64,000 nt of DNA, from contig CP014609.1 in assembly GCA_001586195.1 (NCBI GenBank), forward strand, positions 160,001 through 224,000. The letters run 5' to 3'. The translations under genes were made by a program, and so were the position numbers. The notes under the pieces were generated by a model. That model was not told the origin of the DNA, searched no databases, and saw nothing but the letters and a program-made list of their open reading frames with translations. The stretch's first letter is position 1. Each line of letters starts with the position of its first letter. The stretch is from Solibacillus silvestris. Lineage in GTDB: Bacteria; Bacillota; Bacilli; Bacillales_A; Planococcaceae. Shown here in pieces: positions 4,125 to 8,989 of this stretch.

Positions 4125-5693
4125 ATGAAAAAAGTATTTAGTCTATTATTAGTGTTTCTTCTAACTATATCCTCGATGTTATATGCTACACCAACAAGTG
4201 CGGAACAAGTGTTTACCGATGTATCGCCAAAGCATAGTAACTATCAGGATATAGCTTTTTTATTGGATAAAGGTATTATTAGTGCCGATAAAAAGATATA
4301 CGGTGTAAAGGACATTGTGACACGCGAAGAAGTGGCTGTCATGGTCGCAAAGGCTGTTGGTCTTGACGGCACACAGCGAGCTACGAAGTTTAAAGATGTT
4401 CCCAAGTCTCATAAAAACAGCGGGTATATTCAATCAGCTGTGGAGGCCGGTATCATTAACGGCTATACGGATGGTACATTTAAGCCGACGACAAAAGTGA
4501 CACGTGGTCATATGGCAGCATTTATTGCACGTGCATTTGATTTACCGAATGGCACCAAAACCTTTAAAGATGTGAAAAAAGGACATACGGCGTATGAAGC
4601 AGTGAGCCAATTAGCTGCAGCCAATATTACAACTGGTTATGAGGATGGTACATTTAAGCCTGCGAATAATTTAACGCGTGCTCATATTTCTGCATTTTTA
4701 GCACGTGCAGTGAAATATCAGGAAGGTTTAGGCTCAACATCTTCTAAATTGAACGTACACTTTTTAGATGTTGGACAAGGAGACTCGATTTTCGTTCAAG
4801 CACCAAATGGAAAAACAATGCTTATTGATGCAGGGACGAAAGAATACGGTAGCACGGTTGTTGCTTATTTAAAATCTAAAAATGTGAAGAAGCTTGATTA
4901 CATAGTAGCAACACATCCAGATGCCGATCATATCGGTGGATTAGCTGCAGTACTGGAAAACTTTACGGTTGGCGAGTTTATTAACAGCGGGAAAGTCCAT
5001 ACAACGGTAACATATGAAAATTTACTGCAGATGGTAGTCGATAAAAAAATTCCTTATACAGAGCCGAAAGCGGGAGACTTGATTTCATTGGATTCAAATG
5101 TGAAAACTCAAGTTTTAGCTGTCAATGCACAAGCAAGTGATATGAATGATGCTTCCATCGTATTAAAACTGACGTATCAAAATATGTCTTTCTTATTGAT
5201 GGGCGATGCGGATGCAGGAATCGAAGAGCAAATTGCGAAGAAATATGATGTTTCCGCAACGATTTTAAAAGCGGGTCATCACGGTTCAAGTTCAAGTAGT
5301 TCGCTTGGATTTTTACAAAAAGTAAATCCGAAAGCGGTTATTTTAAGTTATGAAGAAGGCAACAGCTATGGCCATCCTCATAAAGAAGTGCTTTCAAACA
5401 TTAAAACGGTTGGTACAAAAGCTTACGCAACTGCACAGGATGGAACAATTGTTGTGACAACGAACGGTCAATCCTACTCGATTAGTGCGAAAGAGTTCAT
5501 CGTGCCGAATACGACACCTGAAAAACCAAAAGGTGATGTGAATTCAGGGACGTATGTCATTCCAGGAGCACCGACTGCATTTAAAAACTGTACGGAAATG
5601 CGTGTTTATTATCCGTCAGGTGTCAGCTCATCGCATCCTGCATACGCAACAGCAAGAGACGGCGATAAAGATGGCTGGGCTTGTGAATTATAA
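4125..5693 (+). CDS. S-layer-anchored metallo-beta-lactamase (ComEC-type) / Excalibur protein
   Basis: This is a 522-residue exported protein. A signal peptide (about 1-27) is followed by three SLH domains (about 28-75, 88-138 and 147-197), which bind secondary cell-wall polymer. Next comes a ComEC/Rec2-type metallo-beta-lactamase domain (about 209-455) with LDVGQGDS, the metal motif HPDADH and GHHGSSSS. The C-terminal 40 residues are an Excalibur calcium-binding motif ending DGDKDGWACEL. The start follows GGGAGG. The likely role is a cell-surface phosphodiesterase or nuclease. The domain calls follow known families, the substrate is inferred, and no ComEC membrane domain is present, so it is not the DNA-uptake channel. 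Confidence 0.9.
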   Translation: MKKVFSLLLVFLLTISSMLYATPTSAEQVFTDVSPKHSNYQDIAFLLDKGIISADKKIYGVKDIVTREEVAVMVAKAVGLDGTQRATKFKDVPKSHKNSGYIQSAVEAGIINGYTDGTFKPTTKVTRGHMAAFIARAFDLPNGTKTFKDVKKGHTAYEAVSQLAAANITTGYEDGTFKPANNLTRAHISAFLARAVKYQEGLGSTSSKLNVHFLDVGQGDSIFVQAPNGKTMLIDAGTKEYGSTVVAYLKSKNVKKLDYIVATHPDADHIGGLAAVLENFTVGEFINSGKVHTTVTYENLLQMVVDKKIPYTEPKAGDLISLDSNVKTQVLAVNAQASDMNDASIVLKLTYQNMSFLLMGDADAGIEEQIAKKYDVSATILKAGHHGSSSSSSLGFLQKVNPKAVILSYEEGNSYGHPHKEVLSNIKTVGTKAYATAQDGTIVVTTNGQSYSISAKEFIVPNTTPEKPKGDVNSGTYVIPGAPTAFKNCTEMRVYYPSGVSSSHPAYATARDGDKDGWACEL

Positions 5694-5749: not shown

Positions 5750-6066
5750 TTATTAGAACAATGGTGCGGGATATTAGAAGAATTTGAGGCGATATTAGAA
5801 GAAATCAGAAGGGTATTAGAAGTTGCGCCGGTTTCATCTATTTTTTAGTCTCGTATGCGGTTGAATTCGCAAAACTGTAATGCGATCAGATTTATATTAG
5901 AACAATTGGACCGGATATTAGAAAAAGTTAGAGAGATATTAGCTAATCAAAAGGGGATATTAGAACAAAGCGGATACTTATTAGCACAACACACAGTTAT
6001 ATTAGAAAATTGCAACTTTATTAGAATAAATAAAATTATATTAGAACATTCTCGAACATATTAGAA
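5750..6066. repeat. 21-base-period array of ATATTAGAA cores
   Basis: The 9-base core ATATTAGAA (small variants) starts at 5750, 5771, 5792 and 5813, then at 5894, 5915, 5936, 5957, 5978 and 5999, each exactly 21 bases after the last within its block. Three more copies follow at 6018, 6038 and 6058 with 19-20-base spacing. The 12 bases between cores are not conserved. Read in one frame the units give a heptad ILExxxx, open from 5855 to 6064, but no ribosome site precedes that frame. The array fills the space between two converging genes. Confidence 0.9.
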
Positions 6067-6181: not shown

Positions 6182-7483
6182 TTACTGAACACGGGCGAAC
6201 CCAAATCCTGAAGCGTAGTCATCGCCTGTAGCGGCACCGTATCCGCCTTTAATATCTACAGCTTTTGCGCGTGTTTGTAAGTTTGAGCGCAGTTGCGTGT
6301 GAGACCAAGACGGGTTTTGAGCCCAGATTTTTGCTGCTAAACCTGAAACGTGAGGTGTAGCCATCGATGTTCCGCTAATTGTATTGTAGCTGCCGTTATA
6401 CCATGTAGAATAAATCGCTGAACCTGGAGCTGAAATTTCAATATCACCTTGCTGGATGACATAATCGCCATCCGTTGAAGCATACCCGCGTGAAGAGTAG
6501 TCAGCTACACGGTAAGTTCCGTTTTGCTGTACATTTTCTAATGCTGCTACAGCAATAGCATTCGGTAATGCTCCCGGATAGCCAATTGTTCCTTGTGCAT
6601 AACCTGAGTTACCGGCTGCCGCAACAATAAGTACGCCTTTGCTGTATGCATAGTTGACAGCACTTGAAATTAGGCTGTTATTCGCTGAAGAACCTAATGA
6701 CATGTTGATGATTGTTTTTGTACCAGTAGATGTTGCTTGATCAGCAGCATGGCGGATCGCAGCAGCAATATCATCCGAGTAGCCAGAACCGCTGTCTGTT
6801 AATACTTTGTATGCCCAAAGATCTGCATCTGGAGCAACACCATAAACACCGCCTCGGTCACTTCCGCCATCAGCCAGTGCTGACCCGGCAACATGCGTAC
6901 CATGACCGTTTCTATCAGTACAGCTATTATTTACAACGGCTGTCGCTGTCGTAAAGTCTTTACATTGCTCCACAGTATTGGCAAGGTCAGGATGGGAAGT
7001 GTTAACTCCTGTATCAAGTACAGCGATATTTACGCCGCTTCCTCCAGATGTAGATGTTAATGAACTATTATTATAAATCGCTTTAATTCCCCATGGTACT
7101 TGCTGGGAAGCTCTTGCGTAAGCAGATGCATCCGGTGTTCTATCTTCTGTTGTATAATCCTCGCCCAATTCCAGATTGATCGGATCTAATGAGACGACAG
7201 GAACTTTTGTGACTGTGAAATTTTTATTCTTTTGTAATGCCTGGAATTGCTTTTCATTCATTTCCGTTGAAAATCCGTTCTCTGTTAATTCCCAACGAGC
7301 CGAATATTGTGCTTTTGCTGATTGTTTTGCAGACTGGTTGTTTGCTTCAATGTACACACGGAACTTTTCTTGGCCAACATTGTTTGTTGAATTATCTTCG
7401 CTACCTAAAGTTGCCGCATTAGCCGGACTCATTAATGATCCTGCAATCAATAGACTGAATAATGTACTCTTCACTTTTTTCAT
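6182..7483 (-). CDS. secreted subtilisin-like serine protease (S8 family)
   Basis: A 433-residue preproprotein. The signal peptide (about 1-23, ending ANAA) is followed by a propeptide to about residue 125 and then an S8 catalytic domain. The triad is visible: Asp157 in AVLDTGVN, His194 in NGHGTHVAG and Ser373 in GTSMATPHVSG. Two cysteines at 174 and 188 could form a disulfide. The start follows AGGGGTCAGG. It is an extracellular alkaline protease for nutrient scavenging. It is divergently transcribed from the HTH-TPR regulator and its peptide gene, the arrangement expected of a quorum-controlled protease. Confidence 0.95.
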   Translation of the reverse strand: MKKVKSTLFSLLIAGSLMSPANAATLGSEDNSTNNVGQEKFRVYIEANNQSAKQSAKAQYSARWELTENGFSTEMNEKQFQALQKNKNFTVTKVPVVSLDPINLELGEDYTTEDRTPDASAYARASQQVPWGIKAIYNNSSLTSTSGGSGVNIAVLDTGVNTSHPDLANTVEQCKDFTTATAVVNNSCTDRNGHGTHVAGSALADGGSDRGGVYGVAPDADLWAYKVLTDSGSGYSDDIAAAIRHAADQATSTGTKTIINMSLGSSANNSLISSAVNYAYSKGVLIVAAAGNSGYAQGTIGYPGALPNAIAVAALENVQQNGTYRVADYSSRGYASTDGDYVIQQGDIEISAPGSAIYSTWYNGSYNTISGTSMATPHVSGLAAKIWAQNPSWSHTQLRSNLQTRAKAVDIKGGYGAATGDDYASGFGFARVQ

Positions 7484-7546
7484 TTTCCTGACCCCTTTTC
7501 AAAGTATATTTGGATTACATATTGAATTTATCACATTACTAGTTTT

Positions 7547-7575
7547 TTGATTATTGGGAAAATATTAAGTATACT
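7547..7575 (+). promoter_or_regulatory. sigma-A-type promoter of the RNPP-like regulator
   Basis: TTGATT and TATACT separated by 17 bases, ending about 40 bases before the regulator start. The 132-base divergent gap must also hold the protease promoter and any regulator binding site. Confidence 0.6.
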
Positions 7576-7615
7576 AGATAAACTATCCAACTATTTAAAG
7601 GGGTGTGGTATTTGA

Positions 7616-8830
7616 ATGAAAATAGGTTCTTTAATAAAGTACTACCGTACAAAGCTTGGAATGACTCAAAATGAGGTAGCAGCGGGAATTTGCTCGATTC
7701 CACATTTAAGTAAAATTGAGAATAACAATAAAGAAGCAAACTGCGAGACAATTCGACTACTCTTGGAACGTTTAAATATTAATAGCCGTGATGTAGAAAA
7801 TAGCGAACACCATATCATAAAGTTATTGAAAGACTTACAAAAACAGATCAATTACCTAGAAAACGAAAAAGCTATTGCGACAATGGGACTATTAAAAGAT
7901 TATGAAGAGATCATTGGTTTTACAGAATCAGTTTATTTATATGAACTTTATAAATTACGTTACTACGTGTTTATTAACGATTACAAAATGGCAGAACATC
8001 AGTTGAAGTGGCTAAATGCCCACCGTCAGAATTTTTCCCAACATGAGAGATATTTACATTCTTACTATTATGCATTAGTTTTAATAACAAGGGGTAAGTA
8101 TGCAGAAGCAGCTGTAGAACTAACTAATATACTTAAGACAAGCTCGGAACTTGGGTCACTGGAAGGGGAGTTTTACTATCACTTTTCGTTAATAAAAGGC
8201 CGGCTGGATGAACCGAGCCAGGCGATTCTTTATGGGAGAAAAGCACTGCATTATTATAAGGATCAGTTTAATTTTAAGCGGATTATTTATACTTCCATGT
8301 CGCTCGCTCTTTATTACGCGCAGGGGAAAGTATTCCATGAAGCAATCGAAATTTATGATCATCTCCTGAGAAATGTGGAACTGATGCAGCAACAGCAGTT
8401 ATTGCCTGCTATATATCATAACCTTGGGGATTTATATCAAATGAGAGGCGAATATGAAAGAGCCCTCGTTTATTTTGAGCAAAGTGCTTCGTTAATGGAA
8501 AATAACAGCGATAACTATTTATTTTGTTTATATAATTTGGGCATGACACAATTTCGCCTTGATCAAAAAGTAGAAAGTTTCAAAACCTTTACTATGTTAA
8601 AGGAAGAAGCAAAAAGCAAGAGAAAATTAAGTTTTAATTTATTTGCTTCTTTTTATTTATATTTGCTAGGTGGACAAGAAAAGAAAGCAATGGAATTTTT
8701 GGAGGGGAGGTTAATTCCGTTTACAGCAAACAGTGAAGAGTTTAAAGAAATGCACCAGCAGTTTTCTTATTTACTGGGCGAGTACTACAGGCAAGAAAAG
8801 AAATTTGAAAAAGCAATCCAATTCATTTAA
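7616..8830 (+). CDS. RNPP-type HTH-TPR regulator (NprR/PlcR-like)
   Basis: A 404-residue cytoplasmic regulator. An N-terminal XRE-type HTH (about 5-60, with GMTQNEVAAGICSIPHLSKI) is followed by an all-helical TPR array (about 70-404), including clear units such as YHNLGDLYQMRGEYERALVYF. The length is close to NprR and longer than PlcR. In this family the TPR domain binds a re-imported signalling peptide that switches DNA binding. A 29-codon exported-peptide gene begins 20 bases downstream and a secreted protease lies divergently upstream, which strongly supports a peptide-responsive role. Family membership is confident. The cognate peptide and targets are inferred. Confidence 0.88.
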   Translation: MKIGSLIKYYRTKLGMTQNEVAAGICSIPHLSKIENNNKEANCETIRLLLERLNINSRDVENSEHHIIKLLKDLQKQINYLENEKAIATMGLLKDYEEIIGFTESVYLYELYKLRYYVFINDYKMAEHQLKWLNAHRQNFSQHERYLHSYYYALVLITRGKYAEAAVELTNILKTSSELGSLEGEFYYHFSLIKGRLDEPSQAILYGRKALHYYKDQFNFKRIIYTSMSLALYYAQGKVFHEAIEIYDHLLRNVELMQQQQLLPAIYHNLGDLYQMRGEYERALVYFEQSASLMENNSDNYLFCLYNLGMTQFRLDQKVESFKTFTMLKEEAKSKRKLSFNLFASFYLYLLGGQEKKAMEFLEGRLIPFTANSEEFKEMHQQFSYLLGEYYRQEKKFEKAIQFI

Positions 8831-8850
8831 TTATAAAGGAGACGAGGAAT

Positions 8851-8940
8851 ATGAAGAAAAACGTTAAATTATCGCTATTATTATTAAGTGTGGCATTGGT
8901 GACATTGTCTATCCCAATTTATCCCCCAGTTTTATCATAA
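8851..8940 (+). CDS. signalling pro-peptide (Phr/PapR/NprX-like), 29 residues
   Basis: A small gene with a strong ribosome site (AAAGGAGACGAGG) and an ATG start. The product begins MKKNVKLS, continues with a hydrophobic stretch of leucines and valines (about 7-20) and ends with the short polar-poor tail IPIYPPVLS. That is the layout of exported pro-peptides paired with RNPP regulators: positive N-terminus, secretion segment, mature pheromone at the C-terminus. The last 7-8 residues (IYPPVLS or PIYPPVLS) would be the signal. It is in one operon with the regulator just upstream, with a terminator directly after. A secreted peptide with no receptor function cannot be excluded. Confidence 0.75.
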   Translation: MKKNVKLSLLLLSVALVTLSIPIYPPVLS

Positions 8941-8941
8941 T

Positions 8942-8989
8942 AAAAAGCGCCATTCAGAAGCTTTATTTAAGCTGCTGGATGGCGTTTTA
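8942..8989. terminator. bidirectional terminator
   Basis: AAAAAGCGCCATTCAGAAGC pairs imperfectly with GCTGCTGGATGGCGTTTTA. It separates the peptide gene from the converging DUF779 gene. Confidence 0.85.

Follow-up and report, generated by a model that had tools for sequence, protein, structure and literature searches.

In the Bacillus cereus group, the NprR-NprX-nprA system places its propeptide gene directly downstream of the regulator gene, with the gene for a secreted protease, the M4 enzyme encoded by nprA, adjoining. In PlcR-PapR, an activator composed of a helix-turn-helix (HTH) domain and tetratricopeptide repeats (TPRs) has a small exported propeptide encoded beside it and extracellular enzymes as its targets. 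Here we analysed a 64,000-nucleotide stretch of Solibacillus silvestris DNA (contig CP014609.1, positions 160,001 to 224,000; hereafter the window), for which an earlier note, written from the sequence alone, had proposed an arrangement of this kind: a 404-residue HTH-TPR regulator, a 29-codon open reading frame (ORF) 20 nucleotides after it and a divergently transcribed subtilase. Comparison with relatives suggests that the locus is a self-contained quorum-sensing module of the RRNPPA type, made up of an exported propeptide, a TPR regulator, a DNA element and a subtilase target, a reading to which we assign a probability of roughly 0.8. In our best reading, it would represent a new RRNPPA subfamily in which a proline-rich class of pheromones controls an extracellular subtilase.

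All three genes lie where the earlier note had put them. The regulator gene (positions 7616-8830, forward strand) is followed, 20 nucleotides past its stop codon, by the start of the propeptide gene (8851-8940, forward strand), whose 29-residue product, MKKNVKLSLLLLSVALVTLSIPIYPPVLS, consists of a basic start, a hydrophobic leader and a putative pheromone tail. The strong ribosome-binding site ascribed to this gene can be read from the sequence as AAAGGAG at 8835-8841 (forward strand), and relatives have similar sites. The predicted pheromone is IPIYPPVLS or a shorter form of it (8911-8937, forward strand), and comparison bore out that this tail is unlike both SKPDIVG of NprX and ADLPFEF of PapR. 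The small ORF has no Pfam match, and its sole match in NCBIfam was at E 0.11. A hairpin at about 8944-8988 (-28.1 kcal/mol, z -7.50) is the probable terminator of the regulator-propeptide unit, and is absent from the output of a simple terminator scan. The divergent gene (6182-7483, reverse strand) encodes a secreted subtilase precursor of 433 residues (Peptidase_S8, E 9.6e-54); its residues 124-433 match residues 1-310 of mature sphericase (1EA7) at E 7.5e-182, which places it among the sphericase-type S8 proteases.

Conservation of the small ORF beside the regulator in relatives had been named beforehand as a test that could refute the proposal, and the ORF proved to be conserved. We scanned named genomes with the regulator alignment and kept the best 80 of 176 relatives (hereafter the 80 named loci), which come from Solibacillus, Lysinibacillus, Ureibacillus, Psychrobacillus, Paenisporosarcina, Chryseomicrobium, Tetzosporium, Neobacillus, Mesobacillus, Robertmurraya and other genera. 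A short exported peptide with a [P/A]IxPP tail lies downstream of the regulator in 77 of the 80. When the ranking of downstream ORFs took account of start codon and ribosome site only, blind to the tail, the top ORF carried the tail in 76 of the 79 loci scanned (L104 ends at a contig edge and was not ranked); the exceptions were L066, L113 and L128, and in L113 the tail sits in another ORF. A search with the tail pattern matched 78 of 81 loci, the window included, a count that selects by the pattern it reports; it found no match in L066, L104 or L128. The propeptides matched in these 78 loci have the basic start, hydrophobic leader (judged by eye) and conserved C-terminal tail expected of an RRNPPA propeptide, and the class signature can be written xPIxPP[V/I/A/L/M]. 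Among 5964 ATG-initiated ORFs of 20-110 residues in the 80 loci, [PA]IxPP followed by at most eight residues ends 75, all of them at the place downstream of the regulator and none elsewhere; a looser pattern gave 74 ORFs at that place and 23 elsewhere. The tail-blind ranking, the pattern search and this 75-to-0 count rule out a chance small ORF.

At position 1 the tail has H, P, I, V, D, Y, L, F or R; the inner x can be L, Q, H, Y, R, W, F or D, and V, I, A, L or M occupies position 7. Each conserved proline is encoded by three or four different codons and the isoleucine by three, which indicates that selection acts on the protein. The propeptides have a median length of 46 residues and begin a median of 13 nucleotides from the regulator stop. 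In a joint set of 141 loci, in which some genomes occur twice, the pattern search matched 133; of the eight misses, L062, L070, L081, L181 and L189 have a tail by eye, and L066, L104 and L128 have none. Tandem copies of the tail also occur, with four FPIHPPIL(T) units in a genome of the window's genus (G014) and three IPIHPPIG units in Psychrobacillus. Related tails (GPQVLPPL, IPTILPPL and TPPSVLPPQT) were found in further genomes of the family. Separately, two relatives (L030 and L032) contain other HTH-TPR regulators followed by small exported-looking ORFs with the tails LPRPTSI and IPRPTSI.

The regulator has the features expected of an RRNPPA receptor. Pfam identifies an N-terminal HTH_3 domain and then TPRs, and an AlphaFold model built from 63 aligned sequences (mean predicted local distance difference test score 93.7, predicted template-modelling score 0.84) has a TPR superhelix whose closest solved folds are NprR (5dbk, E 2.4e-10; 4gpk) and next the Rap proteins. 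A profile search with the regulator reached NprR at E 1.2e-42. PlcR was absent from the PDB sequence matches (E up to 0.1; with the profile, 1e-5), so that closeness to the PlcR subfamily was not seen. Over the TPR part, regulator and NprR share 75 of 342 residues (22%). PMC4970707 assigns NprR D107, Y118, E188 and Y223 to action on Spo0F, R126 to NprX binding and F225 to a tetramer contact. In our 63-sequence alignment, D107 aligns with F in 57 regulators (its column differs by one between two alignments) and Y118 with K in 61; E188 is kept as E in 12, the window's among them, Y223 as Y in 9, and R126 aligns with G or N in 50. F225 is kept as F in 59. That most of these residues are not kept argues against NprR proper, and the pheromones point the same way, with [P/A]IxPP rather than an SKPDIVG-type sequence in all 78 propeptides found by pattern. 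From sequence and predicted fold, we assign the regulator family provisionally to a new RRNPPA subfamily close to NprR and Rap. The earlier note's comparison with the NprR-NprX layout thus stands as regards the arrangement, and is refined to a PIxPP pheromone class that spans many genera and is probably distinct from NprR proper.

A quick tree of 76 of the 96 regulators collected, with one NprR chain (TPR part) as the outgroup, grouped the tail-bearing regulators with three label changes against a shuffled mean of 16.3; at least two of the three are forced, so one clean clade is not established. Nested among the tail-bearing regulators are one long-branch row and a duplicated Chryseomicrobium/Tetzosporium regulator that has no peptide of its own. 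The latter is a second, 35%-identical regulator directly after the propeptide gene (L065:6518-7729, L067:6511-7728 and L068:6520-7731); no peptide of its own was seen downstream of it in L067 and L068, and it is perhaps a second listener to the same signal. The window's own genome also encodes a distant HTH-TPR paralog of 426 residues (L003, C1:1376313-1380188), followed directly by a transporter-like gene, with no small peptide gene seen there.

The protease is linked to the regulator in two gene orders. A subtilase gene lies within the regulator locus in 52 of the 80 named loci, in 18 divergently as in the window and in 34 directly upstream on the same strand. L080 is uninformative about the protease, as its sequence begins only 215 nucleotides before the regulator. 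Across 261 genomes of the family, both genes were present in 86, the regulator alone in 6, the protease alone in 2 and neither in 167 (cut-offs about E 1e-95, regulator profile, and 1e-80, protease). The 16 genomes of the window's genus divide evenly, 8 with both genes and 8 with neither.

Between the divergent genes lies a conserved element, TTTTGATTATTGGGAAAA (7545-7562), which reads TTTTCCCAA towards the protease and is a candidate binding site for the regulator. Of the 19 named loci of Planococcaceae type (L051-L068 and L099), 18 have TTTTG[A/T]TTATTGGGAAAA before the regulator with at most one mismatch; the exception is L066, which is also without protease and tail. Read towards the protease, the element contains the octamer TTTCCCAA, which we picked after viewing the element alignment and scans. 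Within 260 nucleotides of the protease start, for which the start codon was picked by a crude rule, the octamer occurs in the forward orientation in 48 of 51 named loci (the incomplete L053 left out), 78-113 nucleotides away, and in the reverse orientation in none; its orientation to the protease is the same with divergent and with co-directional regulators. In the three loci missed (L065, L067 and L068), the intergenic region is longer and contains two copies closer to the regulator. In a second set, with start codons picked by the same rule, the octamer was forward in 33 of 35 loci and reverse in none; 7 rows repeat named genomes, and without them the count is 27 of 28. The background is 0.32 octamers per kilobase on both strands. 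Among the 28 named loci without a protease, 25 have the octamer before the regulator, 20 in forward and 5 in reverse orientation, and 3 lack it.

Both genomes with the protease only were inspected. In one (G150), the octamer is still present before the protease, which sits at a contig end. In the other (G027, L199:2316-5270), the same subtilase is divergent from a different HTH-TPR regulator, and 2 nucleotides past the stop of that regulator begins a different exported peptide of 39 residues ending in PGVPEIIVEG; the octamer TTTCCCAA was not found in the 7 kb fetched around this protease. It is possible, judging by this arrangement, that G027 represents a natural swap of the regulator.

In the window's own genome, a single contig of 3.99 Mb, the exact 18-mer occurs once, at this locus. 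Sites with up to three mismatches number 26, against 19 for a reversed control pattern, and we therefore claim no regulon beyond the locus. Nineteen of 25 near copies were examined; 12 fall within ORFs and 7 do not, and one of the latter was inspected. A copy with two mismatches lies 121 nucleotides before the likely start (by eye) of an SLH-like surface protein (L133, around C1:427766), which may, weakly, be a second target of the element. As for promoters, a promoter-like site of the regulator, TTGATT-17-TATACT (7547-7575, forward strand), was found by promoter scan and overlaps the conserved element; taken alone it is weak, because 7 such sites were found in the region and 6.2 are expected. 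A probable -10 box of the protease promoter, TATACT (7503-7508, reverse strand), was read by eye; no good -35 box was seen by eye 17 nucleotides upstream, and the promoter scan gives no site there. From this layout, we infer that the regulator activates the protease promoter and acts on its own promoter as an autoregulator. Upstream of the protease in L072, L094 and L104, TTCTGAAAATT stretches near the promoter resemble a CodY box.

Together, these observations are consistent with the following mechanism. The small ORF would encode a propeptide that leaves the cell. Its C-terminal tail (IPIYPPVLS here; xPIxPP[V/I/A/L/M] as a class) would be released extracellularly, imported again and bound by the adjacent regulator in the concave groove of its TPRs. 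Through the TTTTCCCAA element, which lies in the intergenic region common to both genes, the regulator would then govern transcription of the sphericase-type subtilase; peptide-dependent activation is likelier here than repression, and control of its own gene is also probable. The earlier note's proposal of a new pheromone type controlling a protease has in this way gained a conserved tail, linkage in two gene orders, co-occurrence and a shared upstream element; the control itself is still an inference. With the relatives included, what had been a guess becomes a well-supported prediction.

How the tail is released may differ between members. In the window, it could be freed by signal peptidase alone, after VTLS, and the longer and tandem propeptides would need a further protease. 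Subtilases mature propeptides in some RRNPPA systems, and the neighbouring subtilase is an obvious candidate, though release cannot depend on it in every case, because 26 of the 28 protease-less loci keep the peptide. A more speculative idea, which we regard as doubtful though worth stating, is a closed extracellular loop in which the PIxPP pheromone has the subtilase as its main output and is itself set free by that enzyme, also from the three- and four-copy tandem propeptides, so that signal and protease would amplify each other; the subtilase promoter would also be a plug-in site for the exchange of whole regulator-pheromone pairs, as in G027.

Several points weigh against a dedicated pheromone-subtilase module. 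No protease was seen in 28 of the 80 named loci, of which 26 retain the peptide, so targets other than the protease are possible. L066 and L128 are without the tail, and L104 stops at a contig edge; L128, L129 and L130 are without the octamer. The constancy of I and PP in the 78-of-81 set is partly built in, because the tail pattern was used for selection, although the 75-to-0 count and the varied codons are free of this effect; the forced label changes in the tree count here as well. The Fisher p value for co-occurrence, 6.9e-59, ignores kinship and comes from genome lists compiled by hand, and the regulator swap is known from one genome. The element could also belong to another transcription factor. 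If it were bound by another regulator or were part of a promoter, the module would control the protease in some other way; binding by the regulator is a prediction, and a CodY-box-like stretch in some Neobacillus-type promoters fits such a case. The octamer, however, precedes the regulator in 25 of the 28 loci that have no protease and is missing near the protease in the single genome where the regulator is a different one, and we consider another binder unlikely.

We give similarly low odds to the view that the pair is a drifted NprR-NprX ortholog that has come to lie beside another protease. NprR is the closest solved relative, F225 is retained, and an NprR query matches 29 of 200 genomes of the order, with this regulator as the best match in 23 of the 29 at 22-26% identity; moreover, a 2022 mBio census that puts NprR in 21 genera may include these regulators (PMC9765709). 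Set against this are the 22% identity, the Spo0F-acting residues and R126, which are mostly not kept, and a different tail. Less probable again is a true pheromone pair whose main target lies elsewhere, the protease being a conserved neighbour, such as a propeptide-maturing enzyme, and not the regulated gene. The protease-less loci that keep the peptide favour this, and extracellular proteases are described as maturing RRNPPA propeptides (PMC11343458); yet the octamer faces the protease the same way in either gene order, and the sole exact 18-mer of the genome is at this locus. Finally, a hydrophobic helix and the mere 29 residues of the window's version could suit a membrane microprotein or leader peptide instead of a secreted signal, but in longer relatives the conserved part is a short tail set behind a linker that varies, the tail also occurs in tandem copies and the neighbouring regulator is modelled with a peptide-receptor fold, which makes this highly improbable. 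The PIxPP module with a subtilase target remains our preferred reading.

We also considered whether the module is borne on mobile elements and rejected this, as there was no phage match at E 1e-10 and only one plasmid match, in Priestia koreensis (E 1e-20, 25.6% identity). Nor is it the published leaderless peptide system of L. sphaericus, because the receptor there is of the RopB clan and the peptide ultrasmall (PMC10518010). Elsewhere in the window, positions 4125-5693 (forward strand) encode a protein with SLH, metallo-beta-lactamase and Excalibur domains (Pfam), and past the 3' end of the protease gene a 69-residue ORF without a Pfam match (5855-6064, forward strand) lies over many short ATTAGAA-type repeats.

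The locus unites predictions for a receptor, a pheromone, a DNA site and a target gene, and the combination recurs in many genera of Planococcaceae and Bacillaceae. Because the three-gene module is conserved across many soil Bacillus relatives, the predicted signal, receptor and target are directly testable, and the same holds for density-dependent regulation of sphericase, for which solved structures exist. The class also provides natural variation for the study of pheromone specificity, with one tail core, variable flanks and one variable inner position, and further variation in its tandem copies, protease-less loci and one regulator swap.

Members may already be present in published censuses, unnamed or as 'NprR'. 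RRNPP_detector, in the main text of PMC10075063, reports 21 new high-confidence receptor-propeptide clusters, which could include this family, and a 2025 structural phylogeny sets out receptor clans (PMC12700828). The main text of PMC10075063 contains none of Lysinibacillus, Solibacillus, Neobacillus, Sporosarcina, sphaericus or Planococc-, and these names, other than Neobacillus (searched in PMC10075063 only), are absent from the main texts of PMC9765709 and PMC12700828. Six tail strings occurred in none of the open-licence PMC papers searched, and in that literature, supplements excluded, no paper recognisably names a PIxPP system.

Among the described systems, NprR-NprX-nprA is the nearest, with an HTH plus TPR regulator that gives the best match in both fold and sequence; it differs in its pheromone, SKPDIVG there and an xPIxPP tail here, and in its protease, which here is an S8 subtilase. 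PlcR-PapR differs in having a five-TPR fold (PMC12700828) and ADLPFEF as the pheromone. Rap-Phr shares the TPR fold of the regulator model, and tandem pheromone copies are described for phage Rap systems (PMC11343458). Unlike the regulator described here, Rap is without an HTH domain (PMC9765709) and acts on protein partners (PMC11343458).

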